A stretch of 48,093 bases of DNA from Flavobacteriales bacterium UBA1494. GTDB taxonomy: Bacteria; Bacteroidota; Bacteroidia; Flavobacteriales_E; Vicingaceae. Every line of letters starts with the position of its first letter. The stretch's first letter is position 1. A program made the position numbers and the translations under genes. The notes under the pieces are model-generated. The model saw only the letters and a program-made list of their open reading frames with translations. It made no database searches and was not told the origin of the DNA. Shown here piece by piece: positions 20,584 through 48,093 of this stretch. The stretch lies in contig CAJJAT010000031.1 in NCBI GenBank assembly GCA_905182175.1, positions 1-48,093 on the forward strand, written 5' to 3'.

Positions 20584-21744
20584 TTAATGCTCTATCCAAC
20601 TCTTATAGTACTTCCCGTCGTCTAACTTTATTGCATTTTCTGTTACCATTAGCGGTTTAAAAGTATCTATCATCACAGCTAATTCCTCCGTCTCAGTTTT
20701 TCCAACACTCCTTTCGTAAGCTCCGGGGTGTGGTCCATGAGGTATTCCCGCTTGGTGCAAAGTAATTTGACCTTGATCTATGTCATTTCTACTCATAAAG
20801 TCACCATCTACATAGTACAAGACTTCGTCAGAGTCAATGTTGGAATGATTGTAAGGTGACGGAATTGATTCTGGATGATAATCGTACTTACGGGGCACAA
20901 ATGAGCAAATTACAAAACCGGCAGCTTCAAATGTTTGGTGCACAGGTGGGGGCTGGTGAACTCTTCCTGTAATCGGTTCAAAATCGTGAATAGAGAAAGC
21001 ATATGGATAGTTGAACCCATCCCAACCAACAACATCAAATGGGTGCGATGCATAAAGGTAATCGTGAAGTACGCCTTCTTTTTTTATTTTAATGATAAAG
21101 TCGCCCATTTTGTCATGGGTTTCCAAATTTTTAGGAGTTCTAAAATCTCGCTCACAGTAAGGGGAGTGTTCTAGTAATTGACCAAAATAGTTGCGGTAGC
21201 GTTTTGGAGTGTAAATAGGGGAGTATGACTCAACCACAAAATGTCTGTTGTTTTCGTCAGTAAACTCCATCTGATAAATCATTCCTCTAGGGATGACCAA
21301 ATAATCTCCGTATTTGAATTCGATGTTCCCTAAAAAAGTTCGCAGTGTCCCACTTCCTTTGTGAATGAAAATTACTTCATCAGCATCAGTGTTTTTGTAA
21401 AAATATGCTGTCATCGACTTTTTAGGAGCGGCTAACGCTACCAAAACATCGTTGTTGCAAAGCATCGGTTCTCTGCTCTCTAAGTAATCATCCTGCGGTT
21501 GAACATCAAATCCAATTAACCGCCTTGATTTAAAGTTTTTTTGAATCGCAATCTTCGGACTAACATCCTTTGATCCTAGGTATTCTTTCACCATCGTAGG
21601 GCGGTGTAGATGGTACAATAAACTCGACATTCCATCGAATCCTACCGTTCCAAACAATTCCTCATAATGCAGACTTCCGTCTTTTTTCTTAAAGGTGGTA
21701 TGTCTTTTATGTGGTATTTTTCCTAACTCTCTGTAAAATGGCAT
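20584..21744 (-). CDS. hmgA: Homogentisate 1,2-dioxygenase
   Basis: This 386-residue iron enzyme opens the ring of homogentisate in tyrosine and phenylalanine breakdown, giving maleylacetoacetate. It starts with the bacterial HGD signature MPFYRELGKIPHKRHTTF and FGTVGFDGMSSLLYHLH. The central cupin has DADEVIFIHKGSGTLRTFLG. The iron-ligand region is YNHSNIDSDEVLYYVDG followed by IPHGPHPGAYERSVGKTE. The length matches the shorter bacterial forms. Other genes of the pathway (4-hydroxyphenylpyruvate dioxygenase, fumarylacetoacetase) are not adjacent. The gene just downstream on the same strand is the pseudogene at 20027-20571. Confidence 0.95.
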   Translation of the reverse strand: MPFYRELGKIPHKRHTTFKKKDGSLHYEELFGTVGFDGMSSLLYHLHRPTMVKEYLGSKDVSPKIAIQKNFKSRRLIGFDVQPQDDYLESREPMLCNNDVLVALAAPKKSMTAYFYKNTDADEVIFIHKGSGTLRTFLGNIEFKYGDYLVIPRGMIYQMEFTDENNRHFVVESYSPIYTPKRYRNYFGQLLEHSPYCERDFRTPKNLETHDKMGDFIIKIKKEGVLHDYLYASHPFDVVGWDGFNYPYAFSIHDFEPITGRVHQPPPVHQTFEAAGFVICSFVPRKYDYHPESIPSPYNHSNIDSDEVLYYVDGDFMSRNDIDQGQITLHQAGIPHGPHPGAYERSVGKTETEELAVMIDTFKPLMVTENAIKLDDGKYYKSWIEH

Positions 21745-35709: not shown

Positions 35710-35877
35710 AAAGTACAAATATGAACCATTACGGTCCTGAGTTAATATTTCTGCCTATTGAAATTAGAGAAATTGATTTAAAAAAATACAGCGAATAACA
35801 ACAGCAATCAACAGTATCTTTTGCGACAATAATAAATTCATTAGTTAGACGACAGTTTAAGTAATAAAGTTGTTCGA

Positions 35878-37038
35878 TTAGACGAAACTCAAGGCCGCTT
35901 CCAAGTCCTCTTGCAGGTCTCTTACGTCTTCTACACCAACACTTAGTCGTATTAACGAGTCGATAATTCCTGAATTTTCTCTATCTTTTTTTGGAATCGC
36001 TGCATGGGTCATAGTAACTGGGTGGCAAACTAAGCTTTCAACACCGCCAAGAGACTCCGCTAAAGTGAAGACTCTGAGCGACGACATTACCTTATAAGCA
36101 TCTTCTTTACTATTGCCACGGATAGTGAATGAAATCATACCGCCGAAATCATTCATTTGCTTTTTAGCTATGTCATGATTTGGGTGATCCTCAAAACCTG
36201 GCCAATACACGTTGTCGATTTTGGGATGATTCCGAAGGAAATGTGCGATTACTTTACCATTTTCGCAATGACGTTGCATTCTCAAATGAAGTGTTTTAAT
36301 ACCTCGTAATACTAAAAAGCAGTCCTGTGGACCACACACGGCTCCACTGCTATTTTGTATAAAATACAATCGTTCTGCTAAAGCGGCATCCTTGCAAACT
36401 AAGCCACCCATTATAACATCAGAATGACCCCCTAAGTATTTTGTTAAGGAATGCATTACAATATCAGCCCCTAAGTTTAGAGGTGTCTGCAGATAAGGGG
36501 TTGCAAAAGTATTGTCTACTGCCAATAATACATTGTGTTTTTTTGCAACTTCAGATATTGCAGCGATATCAATAATGTTCATCATAGGGTTGGTAGGGGT
36601 TTCCGCCCAAATCAACTTTGTATTTGAAGTAATAGCTTGTTCAATTTTAGAAGCATCTTCCATGGAAATAAATTTGAACTTGATTCCAAATGGCTCAAAA
36701 ATTTCGGTAAAAATCCGATAGGATCCACCGTACAAATCATTGGTAGAAATTACCTCGTCACCTGCTTTTAGAAGTTTTATGACGGCATCGATTGCAGCTA
36801 AACCGCTGCCAAAACAAAGGCCATATTTCCCATTTTCTAAAGCGGCTAAATTATCTTCCAATGCCTTTCTAGTTGGATTCCCCGTTCTAGAATATGCGAA
36901 ACCCTTATGATCTCCGGGAGCTTTTTGAAGGTAGGTGGATGTTTGGTAAATAGGTGTCATTACTGCCCCTGTAGCAGGGTCGGGGGATAATCCTGCGTGA
37001 ATAACCTTTGTTCCAAATCTCATCTTATCGTTCGCCAT
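35878..37038 (-). CDS. Cystathionine gamma-synthase/lyase (trans-sulfuration PLP enzyme)
   Basis: This 386-residue cytosolic PLP enzyme of the Cys/Met metabolism family starts MRFGTKVIHAGLSPDPATGAVM after a short leader. It has YSRTGNPTRKALE, CFGSGLAAIDAV, ETPTNPMMNIIDI and VDNTFATPY, and the PLP lysine in SLTKYLGGHSD (K200). The GGVESLVCHPVTMTHAAIP segment near the C-terminus is typical of cystathionine gamma-synthases and lyases. Sequence alone does not separate synthase (MetB) from lyase (MetC/CTH) activity, so no symbol is given. No methionine-biosynthesis neighbour or riboswitch is visible. Confidence 0.92.
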   Translation of the reverse strand: MANDKMRFGTKVIHAGLSPDPATGAVMTPIYQTSTYLQKAPGDHKGFAYSRTGNPTRKALEDNLAALENGKYGLCFGSGLAAIDAVIKLLKAGDEVISTNDLYGGSYRIFTEIFEPFGIKFKFISMEDASKIEQAITSNTKLIWAETPTNPMMNIIDIAAISEVAKKHNVLLAVDNTFATPYLQTPLNLGADIVMHSLTKYLGGHSDVIMGGLVCKDAALAERLYFIQNSSGAVCGPQDCFLVLRGIKTLHLRMQRHCENGKVIAHFLRNHPKIDNVYWPGFEDHPNHDIAKKQMNDFGGMISFTIRGNSKEDAYKVMSSLRVFTLAESLGGVESLVCHPVTMTHAAIPKKDRENSGIIDSLIRLSVGVEDVRDLQEDLEAALSFV

Positions 37039-37097
37039 AATGGGGTTTTTAATAACGGTTAACTAAATTAATCAAACATCAATTGAATGAGAAGGAA

Positions 37098-38150
37098 TTA
37101 AGGTTTTTTAGCAGAATGTGTTCTTTTTATCCAGCGAGGTAATATAATAGCGCCAATAAACAAGTATGGATAGTAACTAATCAGTCGCCAAATGAAAGCT
37201 AAAGTACCTGCTAGACCAAAGGGTATAAAGAGAGACAGGAAACCGGAAAATGCGAATTCAGCAACACCTGTGCCTCCGGGAGTTGGGCTAATTAGTAAGA
37301 TGACCCACATAACTAGTTGCCTAGCATAAATTAATAAATGACTATCAACAGCAGTAAATGCAAGAATTATAAAGTTAACAACCCAGAAGCGTGCAGTCCA
37401 CGAAGCAAACGTTGCACCAAAGGCTTTGATCCAGAATGAGAACGGTTTATGCCGAAGTTCTTTTGAGGTTACCATAATTTCATCGCCCGTCTCACTTGCT
37501 TGAATTCTCCATTTGCGTAAAAACGGAAGATTAAAAACCTTTAACAAAAGCCATTTAAATCCTCTTGGTTGAAAAAAGATGGCATAACAGATAAAAGAGG
37601 TTAAAAATAAGATGAAACAGTACCCTAAAATAAAGAGATCTTTAGTACCCCAGAGTACTCCAAATATTTCCTTGTCCATTCCTTCGGGGAATAGATTAGA
37701 AATACCAACTGCAGCGATAATAGTTGGCACCATTAAGATGTAAAATAGTTCGTCTAGAAAAGCAGAAGACAAGACCACAGCTGTGCTTCTTCCTAAACGC
37801 ACTCCTTCTTTATTTACAATATAAATTGCAACACCAGAGCCACCAACTACAGAGGGTGTAATGGCAGAGGCAAACTCCCATAGCATAATGGTATCGAAGC
37901 TATTACGCCAAGATATTTTATTGTCGGTTAAAATTCGAATACGCACCATGTAAGCGAAATCTCTGATGGCAATCATCAATACAGCCACGGCAATCCACAA
38001 TGTGGCAGTCCAAGACCAGCTTAAGTTTTCGAAACTTTTGGGATCGTATTCTTTGTATACTAGGTAACTAGCAACTGCCAAACCAATAAAAATGGTAAGA
38101 CCAATTCTTAGTGGTGAAAATAATTTCAGTGCTTTTGGATTTTCGCTCAT
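37098..38150 (-). CDS. YbhN/UPF0104-family membrane protein (lysylphosphatidylglycerol-synthase TM-domain-like)
   Basis: This 350-residue integral membrane protein has about eight hydrophobic spans. Family features are the PSVVGGSGVAIYIVNKEGVRLGRS block, where the TM1-TM3 substrate groove lies, and the late SPTPGGTGVAEFAFSGF motif near residue 280, both of which mark the flippase-like transmembrane domain of this family. Proteins of this group are thought to move or protect lipids or glycolipids; the actual cargo is unknown. The start at ATG 38150 (MSENPKALKLF) is used because the longer form would run into the divergent gene's promoter. It ends 60 bp before the trans-sulfuration gene on the same strand. 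Confidence 0.85.
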   Translation of the reverse strand: MSENPKALKLFSPLRIGLTIFIGLAVASYLVYKEYDPKSFENLSWSWTATLWIAVAVLMIAIRDFAYMVRIRILTDNKISWRNSFDTIMLWEFASAITPSVVGGSGVAIYIVNKEGVRLGRSTAVVLSSAFLDELFYILMVPTIIAAVGISNLFPEGMDKEIFGVLWGTKDLFILGYCFILFLTSFICYAIFFQPRGFKWLLLKVFNLPFLRKWRIQASETGDEIMVTSKELRHKPFSFWIKAFGATFASWTARFWVVNFIILAFTAVDSHLLIYARQLVMWVILLISPTPGGTGVAEFAFSGFLSLFIPFGLAGTLAFIWRLISYYPYLFIGAIILPRWIKRTHSAKKP

Positions 38151-38168
38151 TTGAGTCGTGATTCCGTT

Positions 38169-38176
38169 TACTTTTG
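38169..38176 (+). promoter_or_regulatory. -7 promoter element for the ArsC/Spx-like gene
   Basis: TACTTTTG at 38169-38176 is an exact TAnnTTTG match inside the 43-bp gap between two divergent genes. It would start transcription about 10 bases before ATG 38194 and supports that start. Confidence 0.5.
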
Positions 38177-38193
38177 TGGTTGAAAATAATACC

Positions 38194-38544
38194 ATGCGGA
38201 AGGCCTATTTTTTATCAACCTGTTCTACTTGCCAAAAGATTATTGCACAAATCAACGAGCCAAAATCTTTTGAAATGCAAGATATTAAAACTAGTTCAAT
38301 TACAGTTGAGCAAGTTGAAGAAATGAAAGACATGGCTGGAACTTATGAATCGTTGTTTAGTAGAAGGGCCATGAAATACCGAAGCATGGATTTGAATGAG
38401 AAAACGTTAACTGAAGAAGACTATAAAATTCATATAACTGAAGAGTATACCTTTTTAAAAAGGCCTGTTTTCGTGGTTGATGGAAAAATCTTTATTGGTA
38501 ATTCTAAAAAAGTGGTGGAAGCATTTCTTGCTGAGATCCAATAA
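38194..38544 (+). CDS. ArsC/Spx-like thioredoxin-fold protein
   Basis: This 116-residue protein has CSTC (C10, C13) right after the first strand (MRKAYFLSTCSTCQKI). It also has the Spx/ArsC-type helical insertion (EQVEEMKDMAGTYESLFSRR), LTEEDYKIHI, and the RPVFVVDGKIFIGN strand with a cis-proline. It belongs to the arsenate-reductase-like family; the arsenate-binding arginine triad is not clear. A role as a thiol oxidoreductase or stress regulator is as likely as arsenate reduction. It precedes a DMT transporter by 5 bp, so the two form an operon driven from 38169. An in-frame upstream start at 38158 would overlap the promoter and is rejected. Confidence 0.82.
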   Translation: MRKAYFLSTCSTCQKIIAQINEPKSFEMQDIKTSSITVEQVEEMKDMAGTYESLFSRRAMKYRSMDLNEKTLTEEDYKIHITEEYTFLKRPVFVVDGKIFIGNSKKVVEAFLAEIQ

Positions 38545-38549
38545 GAGTT

Positions 38550-39446
38550 TTGTCAAAGAAGTTTTGGGCGCATCTTGCCATATTAGGAGCTAACATTATA
38601 TACGGATTAAACTACTCCATTGCGAAAGACGTAATGCCTGACTTTATTCAGCCATTTGGTTTTATTTTTTGCAGGGTTTCAGGTGCATTGCTCCTTTTTT
38701 GGCTGTTTGCACAATTCACGGAACGTGAAAAAGTAAGGCCCAAAGATTTGGGACTTTTGGCAATTTGTGGAGCATTTGGAGTTGCTGCGAATCAACTCAT
38801 GTTTTTTTATGGATTAAATCTAACAAGTCCTATTAATGCCGCAATAATACTAACCTGTAACCCAATTTTGGTACTTGTTATCTCGGCTATTGTTTTAAAA
38901 GAGAGAATTACTTCTCGTAAGATTATTGGGATAGGATTAGGGCTGACAGGAGCATTGGGGTTAATCCTTTTTAAAGGGACTTCTGCACTAAATTCCGATG
39001 GGTTTGTAGGTGACTTATTTGTTTTTTTAAATGCAACTTCATATGCAGTTTACTTGGTTTTGGTTAAACCTTTAATGCAAAAGTATAAACCTATGACGGT
39101 TATTAAGTGGGTGTTCTTATTTGGATTTATATACGTTATTCCGTTTGGGTTTATAGAGTTCCAAGAAATCGACTGGTCTAGCTTCACAACAAATATTTGG
39201 GGAGCATTTATTTTTGTTGTGTTGGGCACAACCTTTTTAGCCTACCTATTTAATATTTACGGATTAACAGAATTGAGCCCATCTGTGGTAAGTATTTATA
39301 TCTACTCTCAACCATTGATTGCAAGCATTATGGCAATAGCCTTGCAGAAAGATGCATTAAGCTATGAAAAAATTACAGCTGCTATTTTTATCTTTACAGG
39401 AGTTTACTTAGTAAGTTCCAGAAGATCAATTAAAAATATCACTTAG
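38550..39446 (+). CDS. EamA/DMT-family inner membrane transporter
   Basis: This 298-residue protein has about ten hydrophobic helices in two EamA repeats, the first with ANIIYGLNYSIAKDVMP and the second with FLNATSYAVYLVLVKPLMQKY and VLGTTFLAYLFNIYGLTELSP. Proteins of this group export amino acids or other small metabolites, but the substrate cannot be told. TTG 38550 is taken as the start, because no ATG lies near and the first helix begins right after it. Translation is likely coupled to the upstream ArsC-like gene. The 3' end overlaps the convergent HAD gene by 21 bp. Confidence 0.88.
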   Translation: MSKKFWAHLAILGANIIYGLNYSIAKDVMPDFIQPFGFIFCRVSGALLLFWLFAQFTEREKVRPKDLGLLAICGAFGVAANQLMFFYGLNLTSPINAAIILTCNPILVLVISAIVLKERITSRKIIGIGLGLTGALGLILFKGTSALNSDGFVGDLFVFLNATSYAVYLVLVKPLMQKYKPMTVIKWVFLFGFIYVIPFGFIEFQEIDWSSFTTNIWGAFIFVVLGTTFLAYLFNIYGLTELSPSVVSIYIYSQPLIASIMAIALQKDALSYEKITAAIFIFTGVYLVSSRRSIKNIT

Positions 39447-40052
39447 TCTCATATCTTCATCCATGTGAAGAGTTCTTATGCCTAATTTCTCAGCTCCTAC
39501 AAGGTGCTTTTTTATGTCGTCGATGAACAAAGTCTCAGAAGGAACTAAATTGTGATTGTCTAAAACAAGTTGGAAAATATCTTCGTTTGGCTTTCTCTTA
39601 CCAACCTCGTGAGATAGATATACCTTTTCAAAAAACCCGTTTAAATTAGTAACGCCTTTCGTAGATTTTAGTTGCTTGTAAATAAAATCAATGTGTAACT
39701 TATTTGTATTGCTAAGACAGAACGTTTTGTAGTTTTCTTTTGTCTTTTTTAGAATCTTATAGTTTTCTTCAGGGATATCTAATAACATTGCACTCCATGC
39801 GTTTTTAATCTCATCAAAAGTAATGTTGTCATCGTAGCTTGCTAACTCATTCAAAAATGTCTGGGTCGAAATACTGCCGGTTTCAAATTTTTTGAATACA
39901 TTCCTCTCTTTTAAGTCAGCCATCACTTCTTCGTAGTCAGGGCCGTATAAAAATTTAAAATCTTGTTTTGTCGCTTCTGTATCTAAATCAATGATCACAT
40001 TTCCTAGATCGAAAATGATGTTTTTGATACCTTCAATATTTTTAAGAGTCAT
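39426..40052 (-). CDS. HAD-superfamily phosphatase (YihX-like, subfamily IA)
   Basis: This 208-residue cytosolic hydrolase has motif I FDLGNVIIDLD with nucleophile D15, motif II FCLSNTNKLH, and motif III/IV GKRKPNEDIF followed by TLFIDDIKKHLVGAEKLG. The DLG in motif I is typical of the YihX-type sugar-phosphate phosphatases (alpha-glucose-1-phosphate class). The true substrate is unknown. The gene runs on the same strand as the decarboxylase upstream, 32 bp away, and converges with the DMT gene. Confidence 0.88.
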   Translation of the reverse strand: MTLKNIEGIKNIIFDLGNVIIDLDTEATKQDFKFLYGPDYEEVMADLKERNVFKKFETGSISTQTFLNELASYDDNITFDEIKNAWSAMLLDIPEENYKILKKTKENYKTFCLSNTNKLHIDFIYKQLKSTKGVTNLNGFFEKVYLSHEVGKRKPNEDIFQLVLDNHNLVPSETLFIDDIKKHLVGAEKLGIRTLHMDEDMRLSDIFN

Positions 40053-40084
40053 TTTTTTTTGGCTGAAAATTAGTTGATATTTTC

Positions 40085-41455
40085 CTACTGTAAGATTAAA
40101 GTATTTTCCCTTACGAATTGTTCAAGTTTTTTGAAAAATTCTACTATTTCTTCCTCTGAATTATCAGAGTTAATGGTTACTAAACGAACAAAGGTTTGAT
40201 CCTTGAAGCTACCGTAACTCACCATTAACTTGGCATGCTTGTGTAGAGCAGCGGTTAAGACTTTAGGATCAATATTTTTGTAGTTAAAACAAATTGAAAT
40301 TGAATTGTCAAAACTAAATAGTTGATAGTCAATATTTTTTCTAATGTATTTTCTAGCAATTTCGCTCAATTTAAATTGATGGTTAACTAGTTTTTCAAGT
40401 CCTGATGTTCCAATTGACTTCCAAAGCGTCCATAATTTCAAGGCATCGTTTCTTCTTCCACATTGAAAAGAAGTTTTACCAGGGTTGAATTCATCCTCTT
40501 CTGATTGGAATAGATAACTAGCTTCGCTGGAGAACGATTGTTCTAATTGTTCCTTATGTGGCGTTACAAAAACAGAACAAGTTAAGGGGGTGCCTAACAT
40601 TTTGTGTGAACTTATGCTAAAAGAGTCTGATAGCTCAACTCCTTTTAAAAGATGTTTGTATTCATGGCTAAAAATTGCTGCACCGCAGTAAGCTCCGTCT
40701 ACATGAAGCCAAAGTTGGTGCTTTTTGCAAATAACCGATGCTTTTTCGATGTCGTCGAATGCTCCGAGAACTGTTGTTCCTGAGGTGACATTGACGAAAA
40801 AAGGTAATTTATTTTGAGCATAATCCGCAATAATTTGGGCTTCTAAAAGTGCCATGTCCATCTCTCCAACCTCATTTGTTGGAATGAAACGCACTTGTTT
40901 TCGGCCAATTCCCATGAGGCTGGCATTTTTAGCGACCGAATAGTGACAAGCCTCCGACGTATAGAGGATCATTGGATGATTAATTCCATCTTCAATGGTA
41001 TTCGCCTTTGCATCCCTACCTAATACCATTGCCATAAAGTTGCTAATAGATCCGCCAGAAGCAATGGTGCCGGAATAGGATGCAGGATAACCTAAAAGGT
41101 CAGCAGTCTTTTTAATTATTTCTTTCTCAACAGCTACCATTGGCCCCGCTACTTTGTAAGTATACATGCTGTTATTCAGAACGCTAGAAACCAAGTCGCC
41201 CAATACAGCTCTACTTCGTCTTCCACCAATGAGCTGATTGAAAAAAGATTTACTGGCTGTTTTGGGAGTATGTTTTACTAACTCTTTGAAAGAGGCGAAA
41301 AAGATTTCATCTGATACAGGCTCATCCTCTAATTTCAAATCTAAAAGGGAGTGAAGTTCCTCTATATTTAACGGTTTGGTCACAGGAATCTCCTGCTCTT
41401 CTTGTACAATTAATTGGACTATTTCGAGGAATTGCTCGAGGTCTTTTTGATTCAT
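40085..41455 (-). CDS. PLP-dependent group II amino acid decarboxylase family
   Basis: This 456-residue enzyme has the family motifs GTIASGGSISNFMAM, EACHYSVAKNASLMG (H171 stacks on PLP), VNVTSGTTVLGAFDDI, WLHVDGAYCGAA (D253) and SISSHKMLGTPL with the PLP lysine K285. These place it with aromatic-amino-acid, glutamate and diaminobutyrate decarboxylases. The substrate cannot be decided from the motifs. It starts the two-gene unit with the HAD phosphatase. To its right the genes stop being housekeeping in character. Confidence 0.9.
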   Translation of the reverse strand: MNQKDLEQFLEIVQLIVQEEQEIPVTKPLNIEELHSLLDLKLEDEPVSDEIFFASFKELVKHTPKTASKSFFNQLIGGRRSRAVLGDLVSSVLNNSMYTYKVAGPMVAVEKEIIKKTADLLGYPASYSGTIASGGSISNFMAMVLGRDAKANTIEDGINHPMILYTSEACHYSVAKNASLMGIGRKQVRFIPTNEVGEMDMALLEAQIIADYAQNKLPFFVNVTSGTTVLGAFDDIEKASVICKKHQLWLHVDGAYCGAAIFSHEYKHLLKGVELSDSFSISSHKMLGTPLTCSVFVTPHKEQLEQSFSSEASYLFQSEEDEFNPGKTSFQCGRRNDALKLWTLWKSIGTSGLEKLVNHQFKLSEIARKYIRKNIDYQLFSFDNSISICFNYKNIDPKVLTAALHKHAKLMVSYGSFKDQTFVRLVTINSDNSEEEIVEFFKKLEQFVRENTLILQ

Positions 41456-41699
41456 TTACCGGGGCTAATTCAAAATGTAAGCATGCTAAATTAATGCTAA
41501 GTGGTCTTATTTTGTCGCTCTTAATTAAACTTATTTGCAAAATGAGCGGTTAGCTATACTGTAGGTCACTCCAATTAGACTCACTGTGATTCGTTTTTGT
41601 ATAACGGAGAAATTTTGAAAAATATGAGGGGGTTTTTGACGGGAAACAGGGTAAAAACGTAAAAACCCTCATCAAAAATTGAAGGATTCTCTATTTTTT
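41456..41699. other. Intergenic DNA with a large hairpin; left edge of the accessory island
   Basis: No gene is seen. ATGAGGG then TTTTT (41624-41637, with a 2-nt bulge) pairs with AAAAACCCTCAT (41661-41672) around a loop of about 23 nt. The right arm also starts a degenerate terminator (41661-41699) of the kind that follows each tRNA-like relic further right. Confidence 0.45.
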
Positions 41700-41766
41700 G
41701 TGGGCCTTGATGGGCTCACTTCTTCTCGTTCCTAGCTCAGTATAAACTTCTCGCCCTCTATAGGGC
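41700..41766 (-). repeat. tRNA-like relic repeat, copy A
   Basis: On the minus strand it starts GCCCTATAG, contains the shared core GCGAGAAGTTTATACTGAGC, and ends TGAGCCCATCAAGGCCCAC. The 3' end matches the acceptor and T-arm side of the tRNA-Met fragment at 47396-47442, but the anticodon arm is absent. It is the shortest copy (67 bp). Confidence 0.6.
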
Positions 41767-41884
41767 AAAAAAAAGACCCAAGTAAAAATTTAGCATAAAT
41801 TGTAGCCTGTTAAATAGCAAGTAATGTATAATACCTCGACAAATTCGAACCACTAGTTAAGCTGAAAAAAGTATAACTTAGAAA

Positions 41885-42167: not shown

Positions 42168-43002
42168 CCAAATTGGGGTATACGACATAAAAAAGGATCT
42201 GATTAGCAAAGATTCAGGCATCTCAATAAATCGTCAACTCTGCTTGCTAAATATGTCGAAAGGCGGATTTTATTATGTTAGAAAAGTAGAGTCTGCGGAA
42301 AATTTAGAGATGATGCGTTTAATGAATCAGCAAATTACAGAAGACCCAACAGCGGAAGTATTAACTATACAGACGATGCTTGAAGAAAACAGATACAAAG
42401 CAGGACTTGAGAGAGTGCATCGGCTAATGCGTCTAGCGGATATTATTCCAATCTATCCCCGAAAGCAGCTAACAGTACTAGACGAAAAGAAGTACATACA
42501 TCCTTATCTGTTTAAAAACTTGCAGATCGAACGACCTAATTAAATCTAGGAAATAGACATCACTTATGTTACTATGAAGGATGGCTTTATCTATTTAACT
42601 GCTATAATAGATGTATTTAGCTGAAAAATTGTTTCATGGGGTTTGTCTAATTCGTTAGATGCAGAATCTAGCTTAAGAGTGGTTAGACATGGTATTGAAA
42701 CAACCGTGAAGCCTGAAATACTTAACTCTGACCAAGGTTCTCAATTTACTTGTTTAGAATACACTAATCTATTAAAAAGAGAAAAAATACAGATTTCTAT
42801 GGATGGTAAAGGAAGAGCATTAGACAATATTTATAGTGAGCGTTTTTGGCGTTCAATAAAGTATCGACATATATACTTGAACCCTGCTAAAGATTGATTA
42901 GAACTGTATAGAGGAATAGATAAATGGATTAACATGTATACTAATAGAAAACATCAAGGAACAGTTCAGAAACCAGAAAATAAATACCAAAATGCCGCTT
43001 AA
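42166..43002 (+). pseudogene. IS3 family OrfB remnant (DDE transposase)
   Basis: One continuous reading frame contains the whole catalytic protein, broken only by stop codons at 42541 (TAA), 42547 (TAG), 42622 (TGA) and 42895 (TGA). Text includes YKAGLERVHRLMRLADI, EIDITYVTMKDGFIYL (first D), LNSDQGSQFTC (second D) and ALDNIYSERFWRSIKYRHIY (E), so all three DDE residues survive. Most of the stops are explained by single base changes from expected Gln, Trp or Arg codons. No indel is visible, which suggests decay by point mutation. Confidence 0.85.
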
Positions 43003-43079
43003 AATTCAAATAAGAATCAACCAAAAATGGTCCGAATAATCAAAGTGTTATAGGTGAAGGGAGTAGGAGCATCTTTGGT

Positions 43080-43337
43080 GTAGAGACAGAGCTATACAAC
43101 ATCGGCTACTTTAAAAGTCATTGGAGTAAGTATAAGGCAAAATCTAAGTTACTGGAAGAGCATTAGGCATTTTACTCCTTCAGACATACAGAAGCTATTG
43201 ATATATTTAAATGGCCAGATTCTTTAACCAAGCTACAGAAGGATATGGGTCACTTTAGTTTGGACGTATCGTTAACCTACTTAAGAAGGTTTGAGGTAGC
43301 TGAATTACAAGGAGAGAATATGCCGATGATTAACTAG
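43080..43337 (+). pseudogene. C-terminal remnant of a tyrosine recombinase (integrase)
   Basis: The frame reads VETELYNIGYFKSHWSKYK, a TAG at 43164, then AFYSFRHTEAIDIFKWP, SLTKLQKDMGHFSLDVSL, TYLRRFEVAELQGENMPMI and a stop. This is box II of a phage-type integrase: R and H of RHT, H of GHF and the catalytic Tyr of TYLRR. The N-terminal two thirds are gone, presumably replaced by the IS element to the left. The tail EVAELQGENMPM matches a second fragment at 44506-44568. Confidence 0.85.
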
Positions 43338-43417
43338 AGGACTATATAGTTGACATTTTTTGTATGCAACGGTATATTTATGAGTGTTTAACGTACAATT
43401 ACTTCTCTTTTTTTAGC

Positions 43418-44461
43418 TTACCTAATGGGTTTATCAAAGTTATTTCGTTCGAAAGAGGGGTACATTATTGCTTTATTATTCCTTAAATCAAGAGAAGTTA
43501 ATTTATTATCGCGGCAAAACAGACGTGTTAGCAATATATTATTGTTTAAATCTAATCTTGTAAGCTTATTATTATCACAATCCAGATAATTTAGTAAAGT
43601 ATTTTGACTTACATCTAAGTTTTTAAGTTTATTATTACGACAATCCAGTTGAGTTAGTAAAGCATTTTGACTGATATTTAATTTTTTAAGTTCATTCTCG
43701 CCACAACCAAGATGAGTTAGTAAAGTATTTTGACTTATATCTAATTTTTTAAGTTGATTATTATCACAAACCAAATAAGTTAAAGAATTATGTTCTCTAA
43801 CATTTAAGCTTTCCATACTGTTATATTGACACCGCAATGAAGTTAAAGCAGTATTTTGGTTTAGGTCTAATTTTTTCAGATTATTACCTGAACAGTCTAA
43901 ATTAGTTAATAATGTACTTTGGCTTAGGTCTAAATTTAGAAGATTGTTTCCATCACAATACAAGTCAGTTAGTAAAGTGTTTTGACTGACATCTAATTTC
44001 TTAAGTCCGCTTCCACTACAAGATAAAACTTCTAAAGCAGTATTTTTACTCAAATTTAAAGTCTCTACCAAACCGTTGTAATGATTATCAAAGCGTAGTT
44101 CTTTTAACGCTATATTTTTACTTAAATCTAAAACAGCAAGTACACTTCCCATATCGTGGTCACCAATTATTTCTAGATGAGTTAAAGAAGTAAAACCCTC
44201 AATTCCTGTTAAATCTTTGATTCCAATTATGTGCCACGAATTATCTGCATCAGACCGAATAGCTTCTCCCATCTCTTCAGTTGCTACATACAATTCCAAA
44301 GAAGTTACATCTTTAATATTTTTTGTAGTTATCCTACCATCAATTTTATTATCGTAGCCTTGACTTATTAATTCTTTTTCAAAGAGTTGGTCTGGAATTG
44401 AAGTGTATTGACTAAAGCCAATAATTGGGATAAATAGTAAAAGGAGTAATAATTTATTCAT
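43418..44461 (-). CDS. Exported leucine-rich-repeat protein
   Basis: This 347-residue protein has a signal peptide (MNKLLLLLLFIPIIGFSQ), then about 100 residues leading into a run of roughly ten 21-residue LRR units with the pattern LTxLxCxxNxLxxLDxSxN, for example LTNLDCSGNNLKKLDLNQN and LTHLGCGENELKKLNISQN. The units are repeated also at the DNA level (63-bp period). No T9SS sorting domain or membrane anchor is present at the C-terminus, which ends SFERNNFDKPIR. A surface or extracellular binding protein is likely. It stands between two integrase tails and is the first gene of the accessory island that is still intact. Confidence 0.88.
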   Translation of the reverse strand: MNKLLLLLLFIPIIGFSQYTSIPDQLFEKELISQGYDNKIDGRITTKNIKDVTSLELYVATEEMGEAIRSDADNSWHIIGIKDLTGIEGFTSLTHLEIIGDHDMGSVLAVLDLSKNIALKELRFDNHYNGLVETLNLSKNTALEVLSCSGSGLKKLDVSQNTLLTDLYCDGNNLLNLDLSQSTLLTNLDCSGNNLKKLDLNQNTALTSLRCQYNSMESLNVREHNSLTYLVCDNNQLKKLDISQNTLLTHLGCGENELKKLNISQNALLTQLDCRNNKLKNLDVSQNTLLNYLDCDNNKLTRLDLNNNILLTRLFCRDNKLTSLDLRNNKAIMYPSFERNNFDKPIR

Positions 44462-44505
44462 ATGCTAAATTCAATATTTAAATAATGCAACTGAAACCAT
44501 TAAAT

Positions 44506-44568
44506 TACTTAAGTGGGCTTGAGGTCGCTGAATTACAGGAAAAGGATATTCCGATGATTAGTCTATAA
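44506..44568 (+). pseudogene. Second tyrosine-recombinase C-terminal fragment
   Basis: This 20-codon fragment reads YLSGLEVAELQEKDIPMISL then stop. It matches the end of the relic at 43080-43337 (YLRRFEVAELQGENMPMI) and begins exactly at the catalytic tyrosine. It lies in the 170-bp space between two minus-strand genes. Confidence 0.75.
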
Positions 44569-44574
44569 AAACAA

Positions 44575-44600
44575 AAAAGTCCCACCGAAGCAGGACTTTT
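44575..44600 (-). terminator. Hairpin terminator of the lipocalin-like lipoprotein gene
   Basis: AAAAGTCC (44575-44582) pairs with GGACTTTT (44593-44600) around a 10-nt loop. On the minus strand it is followed by T-rich sequence. A diverged copy follows the next gene (45389-45417). Confidence 0.75.
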
Positions 44601-44629
44601 AATTAAACGATTTAAAATAGTAAGGTAAT

Positions 44630-45112
44630 TTATTGTGCTGTTAAGGTCTGAACAAATTCAATGGTATCGCCCATATCAATATAACTAAGGCCTACAGCTA
44701 ATAAAGTGCCATCATTTGTTATAATATTTAAAGTGTCCCCATCTGGGCCTTTGTCAAAGATTAACTTTGTCTCTGAATCATAAAATTCCCAAGTTCCATA
44801 AAGTATTTGAGGTTCGGTAGTGTCGCACTTGATTGCTCCTGAATCATCCGTGTAAATACCGCTTGTCTCACACCTTAATATATCGTCCAAAGCACAAGCA
44901 TCAAAACTATTAGTATCGAGACCTGTTGATATAGTATCTCCATTTAAAATGGTAGTAACATCAGTAAGAATGAAATTCTTCGCACACAACTTTTCAGTAT
45001 TTGTTGGAGTCGCTGGGCGAATCATTGGACCTGTATCATCATCATCCTTACAAGAAGAAAAAGATAAAATACTAAAAAATAGAATAATTAGAATTGGTTT
45101 TTTATTTTTCAT
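44630..45112 (-). CDS. Lipoprotein with lipocalin-like domain
   Basis: This 160-residue protein has a lipobox, ILSFSSCKDDDD, at the end of the signal MKNKKPILIILFFSILSFSSC, followed by an acidic linker typical of Bacteroidota surface lipoproteins. The folded part CAKNFILTDVTTILNG to YGTWEFYDSETKLIFDKG, and TIEFVQTLTAQ at the end, has the alternating strand pattern of the short lipocalin-like domains. A ligand is unknown. ATG 45112 is preferred to TTG 45127 because it is the normal start of such a signal. A hairpin terminator lies 30 bp after the stop. Confidence 0.75.
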   Translation of the reverse strand: MKNKKPILIILFFSILSFSSCKDDDDTGPMIRPATPTNTEKLCAKNFILTDVTTILNGDTISTGLDTNSFDACALDDILRCETSGIYTDDSGAIKCDTTEPQILYGTWEFYDSETKLIFDKGPDGDTLNIITNDGTLLAVGLSYIDMGDTIEFVQTLTAQ

Positions 45113-45388
45113 CAGATTTTTTCTCAAATAAAAGAATAAAAAAGGAATTAAACAAATTAGAAATATAAATAGCTTTTTTTTTAAAAATCGAAATAAATGA
45201 CCTCCTTCTAGAAGTCATCCATTTATTTTCATAATTGGAATTAGATAGGCCCCTTTAATTGTCAAGAAGTATTTTTTACAGGTGGCAACGTTTAACGAGA
45301 AGGATAGAAAAAAGCAGCGATGTATAGCAAGGTTATAACGCAAAAACAAGAGGAGTGCGATAATACAGTAATTGAGGTTTTGGGGTAA

Positions 45389-45417
45389 CAAAAAAGTCCT
45401 AACGAAGTAGGAATCTT
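45389..45417 (-). terminator. Hairpin terminator of the BspA-like gene
   Basis: TCCTA and TAGGA (45397-45401 and 45408-45412) form the core of a stem flanked by an A/T-rich extension. Its sequence is recognisably related to the terminator at 44575-44600. Confidence 0.55.
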
Positions 45418-45438
45418 AATTCTGGATTTAAATAAGCC

Positions 45439-46473
45439 TTATGGATTACAATTCGTAAAGGTTGGTTTTGGGAGTGTCCAAGCTGTTGTATTATCACTAA
45501 AGCTTCTGCAATCAGTTACATTAATGACATTCCAAGAGCTAAGATTTTGATTAAAATTTGTTGAGTTTGAAAACATCCTCCACATATCGGTCACATTAGC
45601 TACATTCCACCCGCTAATATCCTGATTAAAATTTGTTGCTCCTGTAAACATAAAACCCATATTAGTCGCATTAGCCACATTCCAGGAGCTAATATCTTGA
45701 TTAAAATTTGTTGCTCCTGAAAACATAAAACCCATATTAGTCGCATTAGCCACATCCCACAAACTTATATCTTGATTAAAATTTGTTGCATTTTCAAACA
45801 TACTATTCATATCAGTTACATTAGATACATCCCATGAACCAATGTCTTGGTTAAAGGAAGATGCATTGGCGAACATTCCATAAGCGCTGCTAAGATTAGT
45901 AACATTCCAAGAACTTATATCTTGGTTAAAGTTAATGGCTAAGAAGAACATTCCTGAAGCGTCAACTACATTTGACAAATTCCAGGAGCTAATGTCTTGG
46001 TTGAATAACGAGGCAGTATAGAACATTAGTCCCATTCTGCGAACTTTGGAAACGTTCCAAGAACCGATGTCTTGATTGAAGGACGAGGCATTGCGAAACA
46101 TATAGTCCATATTAGTGACATTGGACACATCCCACGAGCCTATATCTTGATTAAAACCTATCGCAGAGTCTAGCATAGAGGTCATATTAGTTATTTTAGT
46201 TACACAAATATTGGTAACATCTTGGTTGCTAACAATTCTATTTTTAAGTTGAGTAGCGTTAACTACAGTGTATAAAAGACCATTTACAGTTCCTGTATCT
46301 CCTATTATGGAAGTTGCGCTTGCCTTTATCGTCACTCCATTGGCATCAAGATAGATTAATTCATTATTTGTTGGAGTTGTCGGTGTTGTTGGTTCAGTAG
46401 TATCGTCATCCTTTTCACAAGAGAATAGGGAAATTGATATAAGTGCTATCAGAGAATATTTTAATGGTTTCAT
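45439..46473 (-). CDS. BspA-family (DUF285) repeat surface lipoprotein
   Basis: This 344-residue protein has a lipoprotein signal ([19 protein letters not shown], then [16 protein letters not shown]) and nine consecutive 25-residue DUF285 units, [16 protein letters not shown] followed by xxMFxxAxx. The pattern is kept in every unit, with two neighbouring units almost identical ([10 protein letters not shown] and [10 protein letters not shown]). DUF285/BspA proteins act in adhesion and surface binding in other bacteria; the target is unknown here. It ends TNCNP without a T9SS domain, so anchoring is by the lipid. The start at 46473 is preferred to a longer form whose first 12 residues do not look like a signal. 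It may be laterally acquired, as it lies in the island. Confidence 0.9.
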
Positions 46474-47027
46474 AGTTTTTTGTTTTATTTTTTTAAGCAA
46501 ATAAAGCAATATTTTTAATAACCTAAAACCTTAGCTAGAATCTCACCAAAAGCTGAAACCATTCGGCCGTATTAATAGAATCAACCTGGGGTGGGTTTAA
46601 CAGAAATGGTTTTCTATTTCAAAGGGTGTTGTATAGCAATAGTATAACCCTACTTTTGGGTATATTCAGTTAACTTTTTTTTTAATTATCTTATAACTTA
46701 ATGCTGACTTATATAAGTACTGTTGAAATTCAATAAAGGCATCGGCAATGATTGAAAGTGAGGATTTGTTTAGAGGGGTAGAAAAAGAAGAGGTTGTTAA
46801 ACGACTGTCTGAAATCACATCCCTTAAGGGGGAAAAGAAGGGTGTTGTTGATTTAACGTATTGATAGTATATGTTATAATTCGGATTATGGTAGAAATAT
46901 TAACTGTCTAAAAACGGTCTGTAGTAGGTTAAAATGGCAAAAATTAGTGCTTTTATGGTAGTATAACTCGTTATTACTATTGTGAAAAATTACTCTTAAA
47001 AGCGAAGTTTTGGGTAAAGCATTAAAG
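46474..47027. other. Intergenic DNA with no convincing gene
   Basis: A frame of 38 codons at 46748-46864 (+ strand, MIESEDLFRGVEKEEVVKRL and onward to DLTY) is amphipathic, but it has no recognisable family and no clear ribosome-binding site. The rest is AT-rich with a partial inverted repeat around 46625-46650 (GGGTGTTG...AACCC). Confidence 0.35.
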
Positions 47028-47056
47028 AAAACTGTTGTTTGAAAAACAACAGTTTT
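47028..47056. terminator. Orphan 13-bp hairpin
   Basis: AAAACTGTTGTTT (47028-47040) and AAACAACAGTTTT (47044-47056) are perfect complements with a 3-nt loop. No intact gene ends here on either strand, so the gene it served has been lost. Confidence 0.7.
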
Positions 47057-47087
47057 ATCCCGTCAGTACAAGGCTTGAAAAGACTTG

Positions 47088-47103
47088 TGAGACATCTGTC
47101 TCA
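47088..47103. repeat. Short perfect inverted repeat TGAGACA-TC-TGTCTCA
   Basis: A 7-bp stem with a 2-nt centre lies between the orphan hairpin and the next terminator. It may be a protein-binding site or chance. Confidence 0.4.
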
Positions 47104-47107
47104 TAAT

Positions 47108-47144
47108 AAAAAAAGGACTCAATGAAATCATTGAATCCTTTTTT
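47108..47144 (-). terminator. Hairpin terminator paired with tRNA-like relic B
   Basis: A-rich sequence and GGACTCAATGA pair, with one mismatch, with TCATTGAATCC and T-rich sequence. It lies on the 3' side of relic B on the minus strand. Confidence 0.75.
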
Positions 47145-47149
47145 GCTAG

Positions 47150-47232
47150 GTGGGCCCTGATGGGCTTACTTCGTCTATCATTGCGCTATCGCTTAATGAA
47201 GCTCAGTATAAACTTCTCGCTCGCTATAGGGC
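47150..47232 (-). repeat. tRNA-like relic repeat, copy B
   Basis: This 83-nt unit starts GCCCTATAGC on the minus strand, has the shared core GCGAGAAGTTTATACTGAGC, and ends AGCCCATCAGGGCCCAC. The two ends can pair (GCCCT with AGGGC), as in an acceptor stem. No anticodon arm equivalent to tRNA-Met is present, and the T-loop consensus is lost. Confidence 0.65.
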
Positions 47233-47265
47233 AAAAAAAGACCTAATCTTTCGATTGAGTCTTTC
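47233..47265 (-). terminator. Hairpin terminator paired with tRNA-like relic C
   Basis: AAAGAC and AATC pair with GATT and GTCTTT around TTTCG-type loop sequence. It lies between relics B and C. Confidence 0.6.
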
Positions 47266-47266
47266 T

Positions 47267-47338
47267 GTGGCCCTTGATGGGCTCACTTCGTCTATTATTT
47301 CGTTTCACTCATAATGCTCAGTATAAACTTCTCGCCCC
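47267..47338 (-). repeat. tRNA-like relic repeat, copy C
   Basis: On the minus strand the copy contains the core GCGAGAAGTTTATACTGAGC and ends GTGAGCCCATCAAGGGCCAC. Its 5' end has lost the GCCCTATAG start seen in copies A and B. Confidence 0.6.
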
Positions 47339-47353
47339 TCAGCAACTAAGAAA

Positions 47354-47386
47354 CAAAAAATCCCTCACTAAAAAGTGAAGGATTTT
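47354..47386 (-). terminator. Hairpin terminator behind the tRNA-Met 3' fragment
   Basis: AAAATCC and TCAC pair with GTGA and GGATTTT around a short A-rich loop. It occupies the position of the original transcription terminator of the tRNA gene. Confidence 0.65.
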
Positions 47387-47395
47387 ATATTTCTA

Positions 47396-47442
47396 GTGGG
47401 CCCTGATGGGCTCGAACCATCGACCACCTGATTATGAGTCAG
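47396..47442 (-). tRNA. 3' half of a tRNA-Met(CAT) gene: attachment-site scar
   Basis: The minus strand reads CTGA-CTCATAA-TCAG (anticodon stem and loop with CAT), then GTGGTC, then GATGG-TTCGAGC-CCATC (T arm with perfect 5-bp stem), then AGGGCCC for the 3' acceptor strand. Everything 5' of the anticodon stem is missing: above 47442 the sequence is unrelated. A tRNA cut at the anticodon arm is the classic footprint of tyrosine-recombinase integration. An intact tRNA-Met should lie at the other end of the element, to the right of this window. Confidence 0.85.
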
Positions 47443-47554
47443 TAATTAATAGGTTTCATTAAGTATCATTTTATTGCAAATATTTGATTTACAAGTTAAA
47501 CACAGAATTTGTGTTTTCATCTATTAATAGTAATTGTCATTAATTGTTTTAAAA

Positions 47555-47576
47555 AGTCTGACCAAAGTCTGACCAA
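47555..47576. repeat. Tandem 11-bp direct repeat (AGTCTGACCAA x2)
   Basis: AGTCTGACCAA occurs twice with no gap (47555-47565 and 47566-47576), about 110 bp inside the proposed element end and just after the stop of the RadC-like gene. Short direct repeats at such places can be recombinase or excisionase arm sites. Confidence 0.7.
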
Positions 47577-47580
47577 GGAA

Positions 47581-48015
47581 TTATAGTAGACCATTATCTG
47601 CAAAACTAAAGTAGCTAGTTCTAGTAATTATTAAATGATCTAATATTTTTAATTCTAGAAGCTCACCTGCTTGTTTAATTCTATTAGTTAATTGTTTATC
47701 ACTATTACTTGGTTTAAGTACTCCGCTAGGATGATTATGTGCGATAACAATACAAGTAGAATTGCATTTTAAAGCTACAGAAAAAAGAATTTTAGTGTCT
47801 ACTATAGTAGATGATCTGCCACCTTTAGACAGAGGGTATATTCCGATTAATTGGTTTGAATTATTAAGCATTACTAGAAAGAATTCTTCAAGTATTTCAA
47901 TTTGATTAAGATTCCAATTTTGAATCAAAACTTTGTATGCTGATTTGCTATCGGTGATTGCAGTTGAATCTTTAATCCCTTTTTTATAAGATATTTCAAT
48001 TTCAGTTACTTTCAT
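47581..48015 (-). CDS. RadC-like JAB/MPN-domain protein of mobile-element type
   Basis: This 144-residue protein consists of the JAB (JAMM) domain only. The metal motif is HNHPSGVLKPSNSD (H93, H95, D106), with the usual Glu in ILEEFFLVML (43-44) and KGGRSSTIVD between. Full RadC has an additional N-terminal helix-hairpin-helix domain of about 100 residues that is absent here. Such short JAB proteins are common cargo of integrative elements in Bacteroidota, and their function is not established despite the RadC name. The gene lies directly inside the proposed element end at 47443. Confidence 0.88.
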   Translation of the reverse strand: MKVTEIEISYKKGIKDSTAITDSKSAYKVLIQNWNLNQIEILEEFFLVMLNNSNQLIGIYPLSKGGRSSTIVDTKILFSVALKCNSTCIVIAHNHPSGVLKPSNSDKQLTNRIKQAGELLELKILDHLIITRTSYFSFADNGLL

Positions 48016-48093
48016 ATCGTTATTTTTTGAATGATGAAATATTAGATCTACAGTCCATTTTAGCTATATATTTATGTAGTAGAAACTGAAACT
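48016..48093. other. Upstream region of the RadC-like gene, cut by the window edge
   Basis: AT-rich sequence containing the presumed promoter and ribosome-binding site of the minus-strand gene. No further feature can be supported. Confidence 0.4.

Follow-up and report, generated by a model that had tools for sequence, protein, structure and literature searches.

The window analyzed here, i.e., the whole stretch of 48,093 nt, is the entire contig C31 of a draft genome (45 contigs, 3.33 Mb, 96.2% complete), and its right edge is therefore a contig end. Close to this edge, a CAT tRNA gene is represented by its 3' part, which on the minus strand comprises the anticodon stem-loop with CAT, the variable loop, the T arm and the 3' acceptor strand (Table 1). 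A scan of the window with ARAGORN gave zero tRNA calls, as the fragment lacks the 5' part, and an Rfam scan of the window gave no match that reached the gathering threshold. Beyond the fragment, a tandem repeat of 11 bp (2.2 copies, 100% matches) was found at 47553-47576, followed by a gene encoding a RadC protein of 144 aa (Pfam RadC, E=1.8e-36, residues 20-143). An earlier note on this DNA had described a tRNA 3' portion consisting of anticodon stem-loop, T arm and acceptor strand, a break at 47443, a tandem 11-bp repeat and a short JAB/RadC-type gene, and all four were found again in the present analysis.

Table 1. Positions of the features discussed in the text, in window coordinates
Feature	Position	Strand	Remarks
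Conserved chromosomal right flank, ending in HAD and decarboxylase-like genes	35849..41456		73.6% identical to and collinear with G001:C47
Oldest tRNA tail copy, 17/18	41700..41717	-	hairpin motif 41735-41752; unit 41655-41781 is 86.6% identical to DNA behind the G004 tRNA
Tyrosine integrase relic	43047..43331	+	95 residues, 71.6% identical to the C-terminus of the G001 integrase, one internal stop
Putative left end of older G001-type element	46996..47157		93.2% identical to DNA directly behind the G001 tRNA
Older tRNA tail copy, 17/18	47150..47167	-	hairpin motif 47201-47218
Older tRNA tail copy, 16/18	47267..47284	-	hairpin motif 47316-47333
Displaced CAT tRNA 3' part (very likely attR)	47396..47442	-	47 nt identical to intact tRNA C11:337483-337557
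Very likely right end of integrated element, up to contig end	47443..48093		same-genus genomes match the tRNA part only; contig end
Direct repeats TTGGTCAGACTTT(T/G), putative integrase arm-type sites	47552..47576	-	exact partner C11:337620-337633
RadC/JAB-domain gene at element end	47581..48015	-	Pfam PF04002

The 47-nt sequence of the fragment has a second genomic copy at C11:337511-337557, where it forms the 3' part of an intact tRNA gene, and the identity between fragment and tRNA ends at 47443. Even with up to 3 mismatches allowed, only these two places were found in the 3.33-Mb genome, one being the intact tRNA and one the fragment, and chance is therefore excluded. While the earlier note had labeled the split gene tRNA-Met, the intact gene on C11, one of three CAT tRNAs in the genome, is closer to E. 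coli ileX (tRNA-Ile CAU; 61/75 columns) than to the elongator metU (54/76); the split gene is therefore probably tRNA-Ile2(CAU), an assignment that reflects similarity to E. coli tRNAs rather than a reading of the anticodon modification.

The 14-mer TTGGTCAGACTTTT occurs in exactly two copies in the genome, 63 bp beyond the tRNA on C11 and 110 bp beyond the fragment in the window, in equal orientation relative to the tRNA and thus one inside each end of the presumed element; one copy with 1 mismatch adjoins the window copy. Since a search at 1 mismatch found 3 places and the reversed-pattern control also found 3, the weight of this repeat lies in its exactness and position and not in its count. 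The repeats may represent integrase arm-type sites. A role of the RadC gene as a marker of mobile elements was not supported, because integrase-like ORFs, as detected with a small home-made model within the fetched flanks, were found near its relatives in only 5 of 80 named loci.

Based on these findings, we consider it very likely that the fragment at 47396-47442 is the attR scar of an integrative element, which entered the CAT tRNA gene in the anticodon region through site-specific recombination by a tyrosine integrase. Because such an element would have brought along its own version of the tRNA 3' part, its insertion at the anticodon region would have rebuilt the gene at the left end (attL, on C11), and the original 3' part of the host gene would have been pushed to the right end, where it is now found in the window.

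Only the two ends of this element, 421 bp on C11 and 651 bp on C31, are seen. C11 runs 421 bp past the intact tRNA into an ORF, for which no relatives were found in the collections searched (genome contigs, phages), and then ends. Both contigs thus end inside the element, the body of which is absent from the assembly, and consequently no integrase was seen for it; we infer both an integrase and excision of the element. No overlap of the C11 and C31 ends with other contig ends was found among the readable ends (C33 and C36 of the 45 contigs read N); overlaps of 127 bp do exist for two other pairs of contig ends. A search of the genome with PF00589 identified 6 places. Among the candidates, the integrase on C22 was rejected as it is part of another site, located at tRNA-Arg(TCG), that on C44 because its contig carries no tRNA, and that on C45 because the gene is broken. 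The repeat pair was absent from the integrase contigs searched, C44 having no more than a single 10-mer, and neither the attP core nor the doubled repeat was found in viral contigs.

Further analysis of five genomes of the same genus showed that the element DNA matched none of them (0/5) beyond its 47-nt tRNA part. In G004, both flanks are on a single contig (C60) without an element, which represents the empty site; this contig carries YraN-like and LD-carboxypeptidase-like genes, then the tRNA and, after about 0.6 kb, the HAD gene known from the left flank of the window, where these gene names are a reading of the ORFs and not the result of a family search. When the two flanks from the window's own genome were joined in silico, the tRNA could again be called by ARAGORN and the map was collinear with G004:C60 on both sides. 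In G001, where the tRNA is found on C87, a tRNA fragment on C47 adjoins a tyrosine integrase ORF (Pfam Phage_integrase, E=1e-9) and faces the same decarboxylase-like and HAD genes. In G003, a fragment of 46-47 nt on C17 adjoins an integrase ORF that is 92% identical to that of G001 over 219 residues; this ORF is cut and had no Pfam match, and the tRNA contig (C12) stops 12 nt past the tRNA. The G002 contig stops about 120 nt past the tRNA, and G005 carries other genes behind it. The five relatives therefore include one empty site (G004), two sites occupied by other, integrase-bearing elements (G001 and G003) and one different arrangement (G005). The element DNA is not fixed in relatives; an arrangement fixed as ordinary chromosome was what the earlier note had named as the contrary case. 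The two predictions of the note, namely an integrated element that starts at about 47443 and continues beyond the window and an intact tRNA that shares 47396-47442, are supported by the intact gene located 421 bp from the end of C11, by the repeat at both ends and by the empty site in G004.

The Islander paper (PMC4383910) defines tRNA-targeted integrative islands, and the present case fits that definition apart from the integrase. Islander also sets an element length of 2-200 kb, against which 421 and 651 bp can be seen here. The genome contains both an intact tRNA and a terminal fragment; the position of the 3' fragment downstream of the tRNA and in the same orientation is deduced from G004 synteny, the flanks themselves being on two contigs; and an integrase is found between the two tRNA copies in the sister cases of G001 and G003. 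Like the islands so defined, the island of the window combines an intact tRNA with a 3' fragment that is displaced but keeps the strand, has the element in between and has a fragment that starts in the anticodon region. Unlike them, its element body and integrase are absent from the assembly and its site is layered with older scars. An empty site in relatives, although not a rule of Islander, is the usual proof of an island, and contig C60 of G004 carries one. An island that splits a tRNA gene and rebuilds it at its other end is an ordinary, textbook event; this one is useful, because empty, occupied and decayed states of one tRNA gene can be seen side by side within one genus.

The CAT tRNA site has been used repeatedly, as the window also contains three scars with tail copies and an older element in decay, layers that the earlier note does not mention. 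The older element appears to extend over about 41.8-47.2 kb, with the new element adjoining it. Upstream (in the sense of the tRNA) of each of the three tail copies the same hairpin motif was found, and the tails are on the strand of the fragment. One further place in the window, at 20946, showed a 13/18 tail match; by comparison, between 0 and 2 matches at 13/18 or better were obtained with each of 20 shuffled tails. The units between the tails recur behind the tRNA of relatives, in changed order. For example, 47276-47413 is 92.9% identical to G004 and 47028-47166 is 93.5% identical to G002, values that exceed those of most long matches in the flanks (roughly 74-80%). RNA folding of two window units gave z values of -2.2 and -2.6, and that of the G004 unit, its terminator hairpin included, gave -4.3; we do not read these values as evidence for a structured RNA. 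Between the older tail scars, 42244-46509 contains, besides genes for a DUF285 repeat protein and a leucine-rich-repeat protein, a small ORF that is lipoprotein-like and an HTH_21 fragment that is transposase-like; these genes probably are remains of the older element.

With three short tail copies on the same strand within 6 kb, and with CAT tRNAs of relatives that carry cassettes of a GIY-YIG gene and a tail copy, the 47-nt fragment could be seen as another tail duplication of this type instead of an integrase attachment site. We regard this as highly improbable, since the fragment extends over 47 nt into the anticodon stem, while cassette tail copies start in or near the T arm, since neither a hairpin motif before it nor a GIY-YIG gene beside it was found, and since its flanks are on two contigs with a common repeat at both ends and the same long fragment is found next to an integrase in G001 and G003. 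More improbable still is an assembly artefact by which a tRNA half was misjoined to foreign DNA; although the assembly is a draft of 45 contigs and the fragment is only 651 bp from a contig end, the 47-bp repeat is far shorter than the 127-bp overlaps of other contig ends, the contigs continue for 421 and 651 bp beyond it, and exactly these two flanks are predicted by the synteny with G004 and G001.

While the fragment is thus best read as the attR of an integrative element, the short tail scars led into a wider set of tRNA loci. A downstream copy of the tRNA's own tail, at 13/18 or better, was found for 9 of 64 distinct tRNAs in the loci sampled, compared to 1, at 13, for the reversed-tail control. 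These 9 are the CAT tRNAs of G004, G006, G007, G010, G017, G024 and G011, the tRNA-Asn of G005 and the tRNA-Arg of Aequorivita vladivostokensis (L171); the G011 entry (L148) looks like a further tRNA remnant. In the window's own genome, a series of such features was found behind tRNA-Asn (C15:39969-40446; L270, L386): first a hairpin and a short tail copy, then a second hairpin, which is terminator-like, and finally a GIY-YIG gene that is broken and a tail copy of 17/18, located 468 nt behind the tRNA. When the GIY-YIG protein encoded beside the G001 fragment (domain PF01541) was used as query, 50 places were found in 22 of the 46 genomes of the family, some in tandem with a spacing of about 376-379 bp. 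Seven exact tail copies at this spacing were found behind the CAT tRNA of G018 (C2, L347) and four tail copies behind the tRNA-Asn of G015 (C9, L348). A class-wide search found the GIY-YIG family in 55 of 80 genomes.

To these searches we can add a survey of 97 loci (among L317-L346 and L360-L429), comprising 28 from the family search, the 29 best and 20 further high-scoring loci from the class search, and 20 lower-scoring loci, where the latter two groups of 20 were hand-picked from the listing; the survey did not include 7 of 35 family clusters, for which longer stretches had been fetched, nor one class locus that the family set already contained. A tRNA on the same strand and no more than 700 nt upstream was found for 18/28, 21/29, 14/20 and 5/20 loci, respectively (58/97 in total, representing 11 isotypes), where the chance expectation at about 30 tRNAs per genome is well under 1/97. 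Group medians of the gap between tRNA and GIY-YIG gene were 47-69 nt. Other placements among the 97 loci were a tRNA downstream only (9 loci) and an antisense tRNA (2 loci), and 39 loci, some of them at contig ends, had no tRNA upstream. The lower-scoring group (5/20) is clearly weaker and, therefore, not all GIY-YIG genes are linked to tRNAs. Copies of the own tail at 14/18 or better were found in 36 of the 58 tRNA-linked loci, from 27 genomes, and 27 of these 36 copies sit 319-383 nt from the tRNA end; one, at 1653 nt, is probably due to chance. In controls, the reversed tail was found in 1/58 loci and tails of other isotypes in 27 of 2,936 trials. Among the 80 named RadC loci, which hold only 25 tRNAs, a single GIY-YIG gene was found, away from any tRNA. 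The association of GIY-YIG genes with tRNA 3' ends is firm, and the large number of isotypes, together with the copies of the own tail and the arrangement in tandem arrays, suggests that these cassettes may be mobile.

A cassette of roughly 320-380 bp would combine a GIY-YIG endonuclease gene, about 70-100 codons long, with a terminator and a hairpin, and would insert at a tRNA 3' end with duplication of that tRNA's own 3' tail, so that the tRNA is preserved. At unoccupied tRNA ends the nuclease would make a cut, and the tail copy would arise either from repair or from a long target duplication. Two mobile systems could thus be stacked at one gene, the anticodon arm being used by integrase islands and the T arm by GIY-YIG cassettes. 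We see an even chance that the short tail scars of the window are relics of such a minimal mobile cassette, widespread in Bacteroidia, whose nuclease cuts unoccupied tRNA ends, and that tRNA 3' ends are targets of two unrelated mobile systems. A hairpin followed by the upstream tRNA's own tail was found in the scars at 47150-47333 and 41655-41781 (three copies, 16-17/18). However, no GIY-YIG gene was seen between tRNA and tail in the window units, and these scars are therefore at most relics and not members of the cassette family; as a guess from their layout, they may be cassettes that have lost the nuclease. The genome itself has 4 GIY-YIG matches, with C15, C11 and C20 among the matches listed.

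A similar layout has been found in E. coli K-12 (NC_000913, 1285800-1287700; L430), where exact 19-nt copies of the tRNA-Tyr tail occur every 178 bp behind tyrV. Like the cassettes, these rttR units of tyrT/tyrV repeat, in tandem and behind the tRNA, the 3' tail of the very tRNA that lies upstream; unlike them, they have another unit sequence and no GIY-YIG gene annotated in that stretch, and only one tRNA locus was compared. GIY-YIG homing endonucleases, the superfamily reviewed in PMC1564403, are likewise encoded by small GIY-YIG domain genes, and homing is the means of spread proposed for the cassettes, whereas each cassette gene is linked to the 3' end of a tRNA, with a copy of that tRNA's own tail behind the gene; in the review's passages on tRNA and paralogs, tRNA is mentioned for unrelated points only. 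Titles and abstract starts in the openly licensed PMC literature yielded no description of cassettes that combine GIY-YIG genes and tRNA tails. If mobile, these cassettes would be among the smallest self-spreading DNA units and could represent an origin for the arrays of tail copies behind bacterial tRNA genes, to which E. coli rttR is similar in layout. They matter more than the island itself, which is a textbook case.

A second element was found in the same genome, at tRNA-Arg(TCG). This tRNA (C9:6301-6374; L280) has a doubled CCCCAC-type repeat behind it, and contig C22 (L021) carries an integrase gene (618-1874), two CCCCAC-type repeats (1905 and 1916) and a 14-nt copy of the tail of this tRNA (2071-2084). 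The layout is that of the window's case, with the integrase in place and the repeat common to both ends. In addition, C45:4495-5280 (L023) contains another CAT tRNA, which is elongator-like and is followed, at a distance of a few hundred bases, by an integrase gene that is broken.
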